Of a stretch of 48,281 nucleotides of DNA, positions 40,050 to 44,088 are shown one piece after another (position 1 is the stretch's first letter; each line of letters opens with the position of its first letter). The notes beneath the pieces were generated by a model. It worked only from the letters and a program-made list of their open reading frames with translations, had not been told where the DNA came from and did no database searches. The DNA is taken from NCBI GenBank assembly GCA_902608385.1, contig CACLNT010000012.1, positions 1 to 48,281 of the forward strand, written 5' to 3'. The stretch is from an uncultured Pelagibacteraceae bacterium (GTDB lineage Bacteria; Pseudomonadota; Alphaproteobacteria; Pelagibacterales; Pelagibacteraceae). A program made the translations under genes and the position numbers.

Positions 40050-40739
40050 TTATCTGCTAAGCAAGTTTATAATCTTTTTAATTCCTGATTTTTTTGAAGA
40101 AAATTTTGATATCATTAAACAAGCTTGTGATTTTAAAATTTCACCATCCTTTAAAATTCTTAAATTATTAGCTTTTAATGTTGCACCTGTACTCGTTATA
40201 TCTGATATTGCTTCTGCTGTACCGGTAAATGGCGACACTTCCGTACTTCCTAGACTTTGAACTAATTGAAATTGCGTCACTCCTTTGGAGTATAAAAATT
40301 GTCTAGTTAAGTTTGGATATTTTGTTGCAACTCTTAAAAGTCTTTTTTTCTTTTTTTTAAATTCGTCTGCAACTTCATCTAAGTCTAATAATGTTTGAAC
40401 ATCTATCCACAAATCAGGAATAGCTAAAACCAAATTTGCATTACCAAAATTATACTTTTTCCTAATTAAAATTTTGTTTTGTACATTAACTTCACTTTCT
40501 TTAAACAAATCATATCCTGAAAAACCAATATCAATATTACCTAATGATAACTGTTCAATGCATTCTCTAGCATGCAAATAAATAATTTTAACATTTGGAA
40601 TTTTTTTAATGTATCCAAATAAATCTCTCTCTCCTCTTTCAGAATAAATATTTAATTTATTCCTTTTAAAGATATTAATTGTGTCATGCTTTAATCTTCC
40701 TTTGGATGGAAGTCCTATATTGATAACTTTTTTAGTCAT
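40050..40739 (-). CDS. hisG: ATP phosphoribosyltransferase, catalytic subunit (short form)
   Basis: 229 residues. First step of histidine synthesis: ATP + PRPP to phosphoribosyl-ATP. It starts INIGLPSKGRLKHD and has SPFTGTAEAISDITSTGATLKAN, the PRPP-binding loop. It is the short HisG form, lacking the C-terminal regulatory domain, and therefore requires HisZ, which is encoded directly upstream with an 8-base overlap. It is the last gene of the tRNA-His/hisS unit. Confidence 0.95.
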   Translation of the reverse strand: MTKKVINIGLPSKGRLKHDTINIFKRNKLNIYSERGERDLFGYIKKIPNVKIIYLHARECIEQLSLGNIDIGFSGYDLFKESEVNVQNKILIRKKYNFGNANLVLAIPDLWIDVQTLLDLDEVADEFKKKKKRLLRVATKYPNLTRQFLYSKGVTQFQLVQSLGSTEVSPFTGTAEAISDITSTGATLKANNLRILKDGEILKSQACLMISKFSSKKSGIKKIINLLSR

Positions 40740-41787
40740 ATAAATTCATATTTACAGCAGCACCTACCGCAGAAACTTTTCTAAATCCTAAATTGGTTGT
40801 TAATTGATCGTATCTTCCTCCAGATATGAAATTTTTTAATTTTGATTTTATTTTAACTTCTATGGAAAAAATCATAGAACTATAAAATTCAACTTCTCTA
40901 CCATTAGCGGCTGAAAATTCTATTTTTATACTCTTATTATTATTTTTGCTTAAAGGAAAAAAACCTTTTCCAACAATTATATTAATTTTATTTTTTTTAA
41001 AAAAAGCATTTAAAACATTTGGAGCATTTTTTAATGGACATTTTATTTTTAAAAACTGTTTTATAATATTCGTATTTTTTTTTCCTGTTGAAGATTTTCT
41101 TGGGTCTTTAATCTTCATATTAAATCTGCCTAATACCTCATTATAAGTTCTGCCAGCAATAATTTTATTTTGGTTTTCTTTTCTCATTTTTTGATATCTT
41201 GATTTATCCGTTTCAACAAATACTGGATCAATATCTGAATTTGTTTCTAATCTTTTTAATAATTCGTTAAAATAATTTTCATTCCAATAATATCTTTTAA
41301 GTCTATTTTTCCATCTTCTTGGAATGTCTAGTTTGTTAATTAATAAATTAAACAACTCAACATTGCCAATTTTTAAAACTGACTTTTTAAAACCACTGTT
41401 TTTTAATATTTTTAAAGACGTGTCTATAATCTCCTTGTCGTCTTTCTGTTTATTGTTAGATCCTAAAATTTCATAACCAATTTGATTTTTTATAATACTG
41501 TCCTTTTTTTGGTAAGTTTTTCTAAATGCTTCAGCGCTATAAAAAACTTTTTCTCTAATATCTTTTTTGTTTTGTATAAATCTTATTGCTGAGGAAATTG
41601 TTAAATCTGGTCTTAAACAAAGTTCTTTTCCATTTAAATCATAAAATGAAAATAAGAATTTCTTAAAATTTTCTCCAGATCTTTGAAGTATATATTTGGT
41701 TTCAAGAACTGGATCTAAAGCAATATTACTAAAACCCTTGGACTTGATAGATCTAAGAATTTTTTTAGATAATTTTTTTGATTTCAT
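40732..41787 (-). CDS. hisZ: ATP phosphoribosyltransferase regulatory subunit
   Basis: 351 residues. HisRS-like paralogue without tRNA charging; it activates short HisG and carries the histidine feedback site. The class II core is seen in CLRPDLTISSAIRFI and ISGGRYDQLTTNLGF, but there is no anticodon-binding domain and the usual HisRS YY-G motif is replaced by SAANGREVEFY. The start overlaps hisS by 23 bases. Confidence 0.93.
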   Translation of the reverse strand: MKSKKLSKKILRSIKSKGFSNIALDPVLETKYILQRSGENFKKFLFSFYDLNGKELCLRPDLTISSAIRFIQNKKDIREKVFYSAEAFRKTYQKKDSIIKNQIGYEILGSNNKQKDDKEIIDTSLKILKNSGFKKSVLKIGNVELFNLLINKLDIPRRWKNRLKRYYWNENYFNELLKRLETNSDIDPVFVETDKSRYQKMRKENQNKIIAGRTYNEVLGRFNMKIKDPRKSSTGKKNTNIIKQFLKIKCPLKNAPNVLNAFFKKNKINIIVGKGFFPLSKNNNKSIKIEFSAANGREVEFYSSMIFSIEVKIKSKLKNFISGGRYDQLTTNLGFRKVSAVGAAVNMNLYD

Positions 41788-43156
41788 TTATTAAACTTTC
41801 TTTTGTAACGATTTTTTGATCGTTTTCTTTTGAAGACTTTAGGTTTTTTAAAGTAAATTTATTTTCTTTAATCTCTGACTCGCCTACTATAATTGCTAAT
41901 GGGCAACCTTTTTTATCTGCATAAGTTAACTGTTTTTTTAAATTTTTTGATGAATCTAAATATAATTCAGAGCTTATTCCATTTTCTCTTAAATAATCTA
42001 AAATTTCATAATATTTTTTTAAATATTTACTATCTAAAATACAAATGAGGACTGGCTCATTATTTTTTGTTTTAATTAAGTTAATTTGACTCAAAACAAA
42101 TAGTAATCTATCAACTCCAATACTCATCCCAGTTCCTGGAAAATCTGCGCCTTTAAATCTTGATATAAGTTTGTCATAACGACCTCCTGAGGCGATACTT
42201 CCTACATCAATTTCTTTCCCTTTAGGATTTTTAACCTTAAAATTAAGATTAGTTTCAAAACAAAATCCATCATAGTAAGCAAGACCGCGAACTATTGTAA
42301 AGTTGGGTTGAATTACCTTTTCATAGTTTCCATAACTTAGAATTTCTAAAAGATCTTCAGTTTCCTTAATTCCTTCAACAGATAATGAATTTTTTAAAAT
42401 AGATTTTAAATCTTTAAGGTTTTTAATTTTTAAAAAATTTAAAATTTCTGACGCCTGCGTATCAGATAGGTTGGCGCCCCTTGTAATTGCTCCAGAAGGA
42501 TCTACTCTTTCTTTTTTAAGTAAATCTTCAACTCCTTTTAATCCAATTCTATCTAACTTATCAATAGCTCTAATTACTTTTAATTCTTGATTCTTGTCAG
42601 TAATCTTCAGCTGATTAATTAATCCTTGAACAATTTTTCTATTGCTTATACTTACTTTAAATTGTTTTTCACTCAATCCACATTTTGTTAAGGTATCAGC
42701 AATAATATTGCAAATCTCTCCATCAGCTTGGCTCTTATTTACATTTCCAATAATATCAACATCTGCTTGTGTAAACTCTCTGTACCTTGCATTTCCACTT
42801 TTTTCATTTCTCCAAACATTTCCTGTTGCATATCTCTTGTAAGGAAAAGGAAGAAATCTATATTGTCCAGCAACAAATCTACTTAAAGGACTACTTAAAT
42901 CATATCGAAGAGTAATTTTTTCTTTACCGTCATTAAATGTGAATACATCTGACATAGAATTATCTTCTTCGTCTGCCAAAAACGATCCTATATTTTTGCT
43001 AATCTCAAAAGATGGTGTTTCTAAAGGGCTAAAACCAAACTTTAAAAAATTATTTTCAATTATCTCAAGCAATTTCTTTTTAAGCGATAATTGTTTATTC
43101 CATCTATCTTCAAAACCTGAAGGTAATCCAGGTATTAATTTTTCTTCTTTTTTCAT
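41765..43156 (-). CDS. hisS: Histidyl-tRNA synthetase
   Basis: 463 residues from ATG 43156 (KKEEKLIPGLPSGFED). A longer frame to 43204 is excluded because it runs through the tRNA-His gene. Class II core: RYDLSSPLSRF, motif 2 GNVWRNEKSGNARYREFTQAD, HisA-type LAYYDGFCFE, and SIASGGRYDKLI. A C-terminal anticodon-binding domain is present. No SD fits in the 4 bases between the tRNA 3' end and the ATG. Order: tRNA-His, hisS, hisZ, hisG. Confidence 0.95.
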   Translation of the reverse strand: MKKEEKLIPGLPSGFEDRWNKQLSLKKKLLEIIENNFLKFGFSPLETPSFEISKNIGSFLADEEDNSMSDVFTFNDGKEKITLRYDLSSPLSRFVAGQYRFLPFPYKRYATGNVWRNEKSGNARYREFTQADVDIIGNVNKSQADGEICNIIADTLTKCGLSEKQFKVSISNRKIVQGLINQLKITDKNQELKVIRAIDKLDRIGLKGVEDLLKKERVDPSGAITRGANLSDTQASEILNFLKIKNLKDLKSILKNSLSVEGIKETEDLLEILSYGNYEKVIQPNFTIVRGLAYYDGFCFETNLNFKVKNPKGKEIDVGSIASGGRYDKLISRFKGADFPGTGMSIGVDRLLFVLSQINLIKTKNNEPVLICILDSKYLKKYYEILDYLRENGISSELYLDSSKNLKKQLTYADKKGCPLAIIVGESEIKENKFTLKNLKSSKENDQKIVTKESLINEIKKII

Positions 43157-43160
43157 TTTT

Positions 43161-43235
43161 TGGTACCGCCTCTTGGAATTGAACCAAGATTGAGAGTTCC
43201 ACAAACTCCAGGATTAACCATTATCCGAAGGCGGC
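43161..43235 (-). tRNA. tRNA-His (GTG), CCA encoded
   Basis: 75 nt including CCA. Acceptor GCCGCCT/AGGCGGT (G1-U72), D arm GGAT/ATCC, anticodon stem GGAGT/ACTCT with loop TTGTGGA (anticodon GTG), T arm CTTGG/CCAAG with loop TTCAATT, discriminator A73. The base before G1 is T, so there is no encoded G-1, and A73 replaces the usual C73. This is the derived alphaproteobacterial tRNA-His type. The hisS ATG starts 4 bases after the CCA. Confidence 0.95.
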
Positions 43236-43288
43236 ATTCCTTCCTTTGTTTTATACTAATTGTTATTAATTTTAAATTTATAAAATGA

Positions 43289-43363
43289 TTAAATTGCTAG
43301 CGTGCAGCCAGCATGAGAATGATGTCTGTGAGTGTTTCTTAATACTTTAATTGTTCTAACCAT
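43289..43363 (-). CDS. 24-aa His-rich leader peptide
   Basis: ATG 43363 to TAA 43289. The peptide contains RNTHRHHSHAGC: four His in six positions (12, 14, 15, 17) among 24 residues. It is 53 bases upstream of tRNA-His and the hisS-hisZ-hisG genes, all on the minus strand, so it resembles a hisL attenuator peptide. The 3' half is richer in G+C than the surroundings. No SD is evident, and no textbook terminator follows. A metal-binding micropeptide is an alternative. Confidence 0.55.
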   Translation of the reverse strand: MVRTIKVLRNTHRHHSHAGCTLAI

Positions 43364-43404
43364 TGCGAGTTAAATAACACTTATTCTTATAAATGCAAGT
43401 AGGT

Positions 43405-43456
43405 TTTGTATAGGAACAAAAAAAGCTTACTTTAGTTTTTAATATTCCTATACAAA
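43405..43456. repeat. 12-bp perfect inverted repeat between csp and the His leader
   Basis: TTTGTATAGGAA (43405-43416) and TTCCTATACAAA (43445-43456) flank a 28-base A/T spacer with a possible inner AAAG/CTTT stem. As RNA it would form a long hairpin after the cold-shock gene, without a following T run on the minus strand. As DNA it could be an operator for the downstream His transcription unit. Confidence 0.7.
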
Positions 43457-43472
43457 TTTATGTGAATTAGAT

Positions 43473-43682
43473 TTAAGAGGTTTTTTGCAATTTTACTGCA
43501 GATGGGCCTTTATCTCCGTCTTCAACTTCAAATGTTAATTCGTCACCTTCATTAAGAAATCTTAACCCAGCTTCTCTTACCGCGCTAGCGTGAACAAAAA
43601 CATCTTTTTCTTTATCTTCTCGTTCAATGAAACCATAACCTTTTTTGCCATTGAACCATTTTACTTTACCTTTTAGACTCAT
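43473..43682 (-). CDS. cspA: Cold-shock domain protein
   Basis: 69 residues, five-stranded OB fold that binds single-stranded RNA/DNA. RNP1-like KGYGFIERE and RNP2-like DVFVHASAV are present. An AAGGAAGAG sequence precedes the ATG. The 5' UTR from 43683 holds a perfect 8-bp hairpin AAGCTAAA/TTTAGCTT (43711-43727). Long structured leaders are common on cold-shock genes, but no thermoswitch can be proven here. Located after tRNA-Phe. Confidence 0.95.
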
Positions 43683-43710
43683 TTTACTCTTCCTTTTATT
43701 GTTTTACTTT

Positions 43711-43727
43711 AAGCTAAACTTTAGCTT
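43711..43727 (-). other. Hairpin in the cold-shock gene 5' UTR
   Basis: On the minus strand AAGCTAAA-G-TTTAGCTT is an 8+8 inverted repeat 28 bases before the ATG. It could shape the leader of the cold-shock mRNA or act as a binding site. The A/T composition makes function uncertain. Confidence 0.4.
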
Positions 43728-43792
43728 GTGACTAATTATTAGATTTTAATATTGATTGCAAGATTAATTAAATTAACTTTTATTGGAATATA

Positions 43793-43867
43793 TGGTGCCT
43801 CGGGAAGGATTCGCACCTCCGACACAAGCCTTTTCAGGGCTCTGCTCTACTCCTGAGCTACCGAGGC
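43793..43867 (-). tRNA. tRNA-Phe (GAA), CCA encoded
   Basis: 75 nt with CCA. Acceptor GCCTCGG/CCGAGGC, D arm GCTC/GAGC, anticodon stem GAGCC/GGCTT with loop CTGAAAA (GAA), T stem GGAGG/CCTTC, discriminator A. The T loop reads TGCGAAT: position 55, almost always U/pseudouridine, is G. The 5' end is 5 bases after the infA stop, so the tRNA may be processed from an infA transcript. Confidence 0.95.
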
Positions 43868-43872
43868 AAAAA

Positions 43873-44088
43873 TCAAAATCTAAAAATAATTCTGCCTTTT
43901 GTAAGATCGTAAGGAGTTACTTCAACAGTAACGTTATCACCTTGTAAAACTCGAATTCTATTTTTTCTCAACTTTCCAGCTGTATGTGCTGTAACAATAT
44001 GATTGTTTTCTAATTTCACTCTAAACATAGCATTTGGTAGCAAATCAATTACCTTGCCTTTAAATTCAAGTAAATCTTGTTTTGACAA
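43873..44088 (-). CDS. infA: Translation initiation factor IF-1
   Basis: 71 residues, OB fold, binds the 30S A site. [45 protein letters not shown] and the C-terminal YDLTKGRI are typical. It lies 2 bases after hisD and 5 bases before tRNA-Phe, the order seen in many alphaproteobacteria, though the usual Maf and Rng genes are absent. Confidence 0.97.

Follow-up and report, generated by a model that had tools for sequence, protein, structure and literature searches.

A candidate histidine attenuator upstream of the tRNA-His and hisS genes of the Pelagibacteraceae

Why should the gene for tRNA-His end four nucleotides before the start codon of hisS, the gene for the synthetase that charges it? 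This arrangement occurs in an uncultured member of the Pelagibacteraceae, in a 48,281 nt stretch of DNA (contig CACLNT010000012.1, positions 1 to 48,281) that is referred to throughout as the window. The initial annotation of the locus supposed that there is no room for a Shine-Dalgarno (SD) sequence before hisS and proposed that tRNA maturation, or binding of the synthetase (HisRS) to the tRNA part of the transcript, could set the output of hisS and of the histidine synthesis genes behind it, so that feedback would link tRNA supply with charging and with histidine synthesis. We compared the locus with its counterparts across the family, in the sister family of the order and in the wider Alphaproteobacteria. 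The stronger signal that emerges lies upstream of the tRNA, in a short histidine-rich reading frame and an adjoining hairpin.

The tRNA-His and hisS junction

The proposed succession of tRNA-His CCA, AAAA and hisS ATG on one strand is borne out by ARAGORN, by Rfam and by reading of the minus strand, on which the start codon occupies 43156-43154 (Table 1). By the same sequence reading, G1 of the tRNA pairs with U72, position 73 is A, and no G-1 is encoded. The reading frames behind it overlap at both the hisS/hisZ and the hisZ/hisG boundaries; the best NCBIfam match of hisZ, NF008953, falls below its curated cut-off of 384 bits. The DNA behind hisS reaches far enough in 68 of 77 loci, and in every one of the 68 hisZ and then hisG follow on the same strand. 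Two other start sites were considered and dropped: a TTG at 43204 within the tRNA, which would open a 479-aa frame, the starts of relatives aligning instead with the ATG at 43156; and a small SD-like ATG overlapping the tRNA 5' end (AAGGAAGGAATG, encoding MPPSDNG and then a stop), of which both ATG and frame are lost in many relatives.

Table 1. Features of the hisS locus, in window coordinates
Feature	Position	Strand	Basis
hisG, ATP phosphoribosyltransferase catalytic subunit	40050..40739	-	TIGR00070, 176 bits
hisZ, ATP phosphoribosyltransferase regulatory subunit	40732..41787	-	PF13393; NF008953, 286.8 bits
hisS, histidyl-tRNA synthetase, 463 aa	41765..43156	-	TIGR00442, 350.7 bits (cut-off 286.75)
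Junction AAAA, tRNA CCA to hisS ATG, 4 nt	43157..43160	-	sequence
tRNA-His (GTG), CCA encoded	43161..43235	-	ARAGORN 43161-43235; Rfam 43164-43235
P2 -10-like element TAGTATAAAAC, starting 23 nt before tRNA 5' end	43248..43258	-	predicted; without convincing -35
His leader ORF MVRTIKVLRNTHRHHSHAGCTLAI and stop, 24 codons	43289..43363	-	ORF reading, conservation
Hairpin II, UGCUGGC(UGCAC)GCUAGCA	43295..43313	-	-9.3 kcal/mol; covariation
His codon cluster CAC AGA CAT CAT TCT CAT	43313..43330	-	sequence
P1 -10-like element TATTTA, ending 7 nt before leader ATG	43371..43376	-	predicted
P1 -35-like element TTGCAT, 35 nt upstream of leader ATG	43393..43398	-	conserved spacing; predicted
Inverted repeat behind upstream cold-shock gene	43405..43456	-	sequence reading; TTTGTATAGGAA and TTCCTATACAAA complementary

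Conservation was assessed in 110 HisS loci, comprising the window (L001), two loci of the sister family (L108, L109), one from outside the order (L110) and otherwise members of the Pelagibacteraceae. ARAGORN called a tRNA-His before hisS in 99 of the 110, and eight more (L003, L007, L009, L011, L013, L019, L025 and L030) carry a tRNA-shaped element with an altered T-loop and the same end position. A further 39 upstream regions were picked for diverged members and other genera, and the tRNA is seen in every one of them, in L222 and L226 by motif without an ARAGORN call. The sampled loci span 11 of the 14 Pelagibacteraceae genera met, those left out being g10, g11 and g13; for some loci the same genome had been fetched twice (L244 and L008, for example), and 49 representatives of less than 85% identity were therefore also used. 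Of the 146 Pelagibacteraceae spacers between tRNA and hisS, 141 measure 3-6 nt: one is 3 nt long, 118 are 4 nt, 21 are 5 nt and one is 6 nt. The same range covers 44 of the 49 representatives (4 nt in 30, 5 nt in 13 and 6 nt in 1). The remaining five, at 11, 28, 29, 29 and 47 nt, are found in L227, L219, L220, L222 and L226, and the most frequent spacer is AAAA (109/146). Such short spacing is not a product of chance, and both the 4-nt spacer and the linkage itself, on whose presence in other SAR11 genomes the original proposal had been made to depend, are kept in close relatives.

The gene at the junction is also the only tRNA-His that we found. When the tRNA-family matches of three genomes were typed (29 in G000, the genome of the window, 33 in G003 and 30 in G063), a His anticodon occurred in each only in the neighbour of hisS; G000 is 85% complete, a 33-bit fragment of G003 (L212) defied typing, and for G003 and G063 the anticodon was read from sequence, ARAGORN making no call. 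The eight loci with an altered T-loop lack both the TTC motif of that loop and the GG of the D-loop, and G003 and G063, both near-complete, yielded no tRNA-His other than the degenerate form. Were these eight loci of the genus, none of them called by ARAGORN, considered alone, a regulatory mimic of a tRNA might be suspected in place of a working molecule; we consider this very improbable and reject it, because the element is the only gene with a His anticodon found in G000 and also, with the degenerate form, in G003 and G063. A derived pair of tRNA-His and HisRS has been described in seven of eight SAR11 strains (PMC3937112); gene order is not discussed in the main text of that paper, from which the words 'upstream', 'operon', 'synten' and 'adjacent' are absent.

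The supposition that hisS has no room for an SD holds for 137 of 146 loci, in which no SD-like tetramer lies 4-16 nt before the ATG, and fails for the window and seven close relatives, which have GAGG in the paired acceptor stem of the tRNA, in the window at a distance of 12 nt from the ATG. A ninth locus, L219, has AGGA in its long spacer. An SD inside the tRNA would have spoken against the proposal; the only SD-like motif there is confined to the window and its nearest relatives (8/146 loci), and in substance the objection does not apply. Among 47 long ORFs of the window, 6 have an SD-like motif in front, compared to 4 of 47 for a control stretch, which suggests that initiation in this genome is mostly SD-independent; for this reason the absence of an SD before hisS tells little. 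Nonetheless, hisS has the layout of a near-leaderless message, with the 3' end of the tRNA a few nucleotides from the start and no free SD. RNase Z was considered as the enzyme that might cut behind the CCA; at its cut-off, the RNase Z model TIGR02651 matched none of four SAR11 genomes, with weak matches in three, compared to nine of 14 control genomes.

A histidine leader and hairpin before the tRNA

The cold-shock gene upstream is separated from the tRNA by 237 nt, within which lies a short ORF with a cluster of His codons (Table 1). An ORF beginning with ATG is present in the tested frame in 48 of the 49 non-redundant loci. Over the ten codons before the last His codon, the representatives have a mean of 2.08 His codons in the leader frame, compared to 0.36 in the other two and 0.10 in a control of unrelated CAY triplets (n = 306), the anchor His codon, which was picked beside the hairpin, being excluded from the count. 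Both CAT and CAC occur at conserved His positions (at position -5, for instance, 17 CAC and 9 CAT), and the leader frames of relatives include MIRTIKALKNTHRHHFHAGCTLAI, MTKIVILNKETHRHHFHAGCTLAI and MIIKNKISTLRTHTHSVHAKLLLSL. The cluster pattern CAYNNNCAYNNNNNNCAYGCNNGC has a single match in the genome of the window, at the leader, and none in G003, G063 or G009, where the leaders are spaced differently. The locus thus shows a mark of attenuators, a short ORF in which codons for the regulated amino acid are clustered, and this feature is weak in one group, marked by a short ATAGCC hairpin, which has just one or two His codons (L005, L008, L012, L018-L024 and others). In another group (L002-L004, L007, L009, L025, L030) the leaders are longer and abound in Arg, Gly and Thr, that of L025 being repetitive (TNRGTQRSTLRGTNRGTHRHFHAG).

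Upstream of the leader, 45 of 48 non-redundant loci have a TTG at 33-37 nt from the ATG, 29 of them at exactly 35 nt. Since the -10-like element of this putative promoter, P1, ends in the window 7 nt before the ATG, the predicted RNA start falls at the leader ATG, and the leader ORF may be leaderless. A second putative promoter, P2, lies between leader and tRNA: the motif TA[AGT][AGT]ATA is present at 45 of 48 loci in the interval 8-30 nt upstream of the tRNA, compared to 1 of 48 for a control stretch, and is among the invariant columns of a longer leader alignment, A2, made from 23 of the 49 representatives. We infer promoter activity for both from these patterns; a simple consensus scan listed neither, the P1 hexamers being weak. 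Just upstream of the P2 element, DnaA-box-like sequences (TTATCCACA, TTTTCCACA or similar) were seen in L039, L041, L048, L099, L218, L239 and others. A link between DnaA and his in Escherichia coli is the subject of PMC10989985; the reading of TTATCCACA as a DnaA box was dropped, the sequence being missing from the window and from other loci. On the far side of P1, the inverted repeat behind the cold-shock gene is probably the end of the cold-shock transcript. In several genera tRNA-Phe (43793-43867 in the window) stands just upstream of the leader (L227, L230, L231, L245-L247); in the window the cold-shock gene separates the two.

The hairpin, hairpin II, adjoins the last His codon. Its stem has 6-8 pairs and, counted from the first base of that codon, starts 1-3 nt downstream, either within the codon or just behind it; in the window it begins at the last base. 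Among 48 aligned loci, 90.6% of hairpin cells are paired, compared to 75.6 +/- 1.3 in shuffles, and the covariation score is 0.489, compared to 0.249 +/- 0.019, in an alignment with one hairpin group out of register. Sliding the partner by 1-3 columns reduces the score to 0.123 or less, and six of the seven pairs have changed on both sides. Of the five covariation measures, two do not clearly exceed the shuffles, namely double changes in pairs (57/500) and extra pair types (254/500). RNAalifold returned zero pairs on A2, an alignment in which MAFFT leaves the hairpins of different groups in different registers. Taken whole, the window leader is no more stable than shuffled sequence (z -0.50), and folds of segments reach z < -2 in 18 of 48 loci, the window segment standing at -1.54.

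A covarying hairpin is thus placed within reach of a ribosome stalled on the His codons, as in an attenuator. The U run of an intrinsic terminator is not a property of the 48 loci: at least five T occur in the 8 nt after the hairpin in 14, the longest T run within 15 nt is usually 2-3, and a simple scan of the minus strand from 42900 to 43900 listed no terminator. Without a U run, hairpin II is not a classical intrinsic terminator. A non-exhaustive search of the window leader fold, A2 and the segment folds found no competing antiterminator pairing. Rfam covariance models gave only tRNA at the gathering threshold in the window, and between 43150 and 43480 no leader or T-box family at E values up to 5. 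Eight loci (L102, L225, L232, L235, L236, L248, L249, L250) have an extra stem directly before hairpin II, with the His codons in or beside its loop; its arms differ between loci yet stay complementary, and it is found in other genera of the family. The His-codon leader and its hairpin, 60-130 nt upstream of the tRNA and absent from the initial annotation of the junction, are probably the sensor of the locus.

Sister-family leaders and other tight tRNA junctions

We read 11 hisS loci of the sister family (L256-L266), one more being too short. None of the 11 has a tRNA before hisS, and all have an 11-codon leader with 3-4 His codons (MFKFKHYHYHI, MLIIKHHHSHI, MIVFTHHHIHI and similar), a hairpin of 9-12 bp right behind the leader stop and a TTG-to-ATG distance of 35-36 nt. 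A conserved ACCCC(C) followed by a T/A-rich stretch lies between leader hairpin and hisS in these loci. Outside the order, no tRNA was found within stretches of up to about 1.5 kb on each side of hisS in 30 class-wide loci (the best-scoring 30 of 142 genomes), nor in 20 further hisS upstream stretches. ORFs with at least three His codons in ten were found in one of the 30 and one of the 20, neither of them leader-like by eye; the orientation of four of the 20 stretches was taken from the strands of the hisS search. The simplest history would be that the His leader is ancestral to the order and that the tRNA gene arrived between leader and hisS in the Pelagibacteraceae.

Tight junctions behind tRNAs are not peculiar to hisS. 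Of the 29 tRNAs of G000, 28 have enough flanking sequence, one lying too close to a contig end, and a frame of at least 60 aa starts within 15 nt behind nine of these and within 10 nt behind six: Pro-NDUS4, Gln-cca, His-hisS, Leu-nadK, Leu-AMP-binding ligase and Leu-tig. Because SD-less starts close behind tRNAs are common here, autoregulation by HisRS is not implied by the junction alone. The proposed feedback loop of tRNA supply, charging and histidine synthesis remains the likeliest meaning of a locus with conserved linkage, a conserved short spacer and the only tRNA-His found, but the junction is not supported as its specific cause, the other five pairs being arranged alike.

Two junctions are unusually strict, hisS behind tRNA-His and cca behind tRNA-Gln. 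The cca product, the CCA-adding enzyme, has an NCBIfam match below the curated cut-off and a Pfam head domain above its own. In the family, cca begins exactly 3 nt behind the CCA of tRNA-Gln(TTG) in 21 of 22 loci and 4 nt behind it in one (L156:1501-2849; L352-L373), the letters of the spacer themselves varying freely; no tRNA precedes cca in eight of eight sister-family loci. The tig gene (trigger factor) starts 6-11 nt behind tRNA-Leu(TAG) in 18 loci of the family (L165:63-1582; L322-L351). In the sister family this distance is 10-21 nt at 11 of 12 loci, and the twelfth locus is truncated.

Such strictness might be expected if HisRS or tRNA maturation acted on the tRNA part of the precursor, an attached or bound tRNA blocking ribosomes from the hisS ATG and a cut behind the CCA freeing a near-leaderless message. 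Autoregulation by bound HisRS may coexist with the leader; as the explanation of the locus, feedback at the junction seems unlikely to us. It would fit the spacer, which is 4-5 nt long in 43 of the 49 representatives, and the occurrence of a second acceptor-end enzyme at a fixed short distance behind a tRNA, with the looser spacing of tig for comparison. However, genes unrelated to tRNA (tig, nadK, the AMP ligase and NDUS4) also stand 10 nt or less behind tRNAs, and the five representatives with spacers of 11-47 nt still keep the leader. In a bolder form, the tRNA genes of SAR11 might serve as processing gates for acceptor-end enzymes, with HisRS and the CCA-adding enzyme each binding its own precursor, delaying the cut and so limiting its own translation, in a layer stacked on the proposed attenuator at hisS. 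We regard this as quite unlikely; if true, one transcript would meter tRNA, synthetase and histidine synthesis twice.

Genome streamlining could also yield a shared promoter and tight spacing through minimal non-coding DNA, the junction then having no regulatory role and the leader being separate or decaying. The frequency of frames close behind tRNAs, the little or no SD enrichment and the overlaps within hisS-hisZ-hisG all accord with it, but it leaves unexplained why 237 nt are kept upstream of the tRNA, with a conserved His frame, a covarying hairpin and near-fixed promoter spacing, and why the sister family has a related leader. Streamlining alone is therefore, in our judgement, an improbable account.

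Proposed histidine sensing and its relation to known systems

The reading we consider likely is that a histidine attenuator, sensed by the ribosome, controls a segment comprising the only tRNA-His gene found, hisS and hisZG. The unit would run in the order P1, His leader ORF, hairpin, P2, tRNA-His, 4-nt spacer, hisS, hisZ and hisG. The P1 transcript would have its 5' end on the leader ATG or beside it, and the leader would accordingly be translated without an SD. When charged tRNA-His is scarce, the ribosome would stall on the leader His codons with its footprint over the 5' arm of the hairpin; the hairpin could not then form, and transcription would extend over tRNA-His, hisS, hisZ and hisG. 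With charged tRNA-His in good supply, the ribosome would clear the leader, the hairpin would form, and transcription from P1 would stop or the RNA be destabilised. P2 would provide a basal supply of tRNA and hisS. The tRNA would be excised from the transcript, and the cut behind its CCA would leave hisS RNA with a 4-nt leader, to be read like a leaderless message. A counter-point is that a promoter right before the tRNA would let most transcription of tRNA and hisS bypass the leader.

Leader and hairpin might instead act without termination, for example by way of RNA decay or processing, through access of Rho, or by a small RNA or a peptide working in trans. This overlaps with the attenuator reading and, as a replacement for it, appears somewhat unlikely. 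The missing U run would suit such a route, and in Sinorhizobium meliloti both trpL RNA and its peptide act in trans (PMC7298713); on the other side, the codon cluster adjoins the hairpin in every scored locus, as suits occlusion by a ribosome in cis, an adjacency that is partly by construction, the anchor codon having been picked next to the hairpin.

Leader-peptide attenuators of the hisL type are known in enteric his operons. In common with these and other amino acid operon leaders, the proposed SAR11 leader has a short ORF with clustered codons, an adjoining hairpin and amino acid genes downstream. It differs from them in having no U-run terminator, no antiterminator that we could find and no Rfam leader match, in an ORF that looks leaderless, and in a controlled segment that starts with the only gene found for the tRNA of the sensed amino acid. 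T-box leaders bind tRNA and sense its charging to control synthetase genes; control of a synthetase by tRNA charging would be shared, whereas the sensor proposed here is a ribosome stalling on codons, and no T-box was matched. In the punctuation of mitochondrial transcripts by tRNAs, a tRNA abuts a start codon and its excision yields a message with a short leader; the SAR11 case differs in concerning a handful of junctions on a bacterial chromosome, where processing is presumed from the layout. No other attenuator is known to us in which the regulated stretch starts with the tRNA that is sensed.

Among published systems, the uORFC-8-2 motif of Rhodobacterales, a Cys-codon attenuator before cysS (PMC8632094), is likewise an alphaproteobacterial synthetase gene behind an ORF in its own codons and stems, the first of which holds the codons; it differs in its Cys codons and in the U run, marking an intrinsic terminator, at its end, and its description there includes no tRNA gene. 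His leader peptides, with a stretch of His codons, are reported before the hisS-family genes hisS* and hisZ in bacilli (PMC2965389); these belong to the Firmicutes and come from a search for premature terminators, in an account that mentions hisS T-boxes, describes leaders as being without similarity between Firmicutes and Proteobacteria, and in the part available makes no mention of a tRNA gene. The trp leader RNA of S. meliloti starts at its own leader ATG (PMC7298713) and so shares a leaderless leader ORF, but has Trp codons, a terminator/antiterminator pair and trpE(G) downstream. In a limited and largely open-access literature we found no account of a hisS leader or attenuator, or of the tRNA-His and hisS junction, in SAR11. 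A survey of structured RNAs in Pelagibacter ranked intergenic regions that exclude those with tRNA or rRNA (PMC2704228), which may explain why the leader went unseen.

Leader-peptide attenuators themselves are known; what would be new here is an attenuator-type leader that lacks a U run and carries the only gene found for the tRNA of the sensed amino acid. SAR11 count among the Earth's most abundant bacteria, and their set of regulators is believed to be small. The tight spacing between tRNAs and start codons makes tRNA-dependent, leaderless-like translation directly testable in a free-living bacterium. If the proposed control is real, a histidine gauge governing the only tRNA-His found together with HisRS and the entry step of histidine synthesis would give these organisms a compact form of control that needs no regulatory protein.
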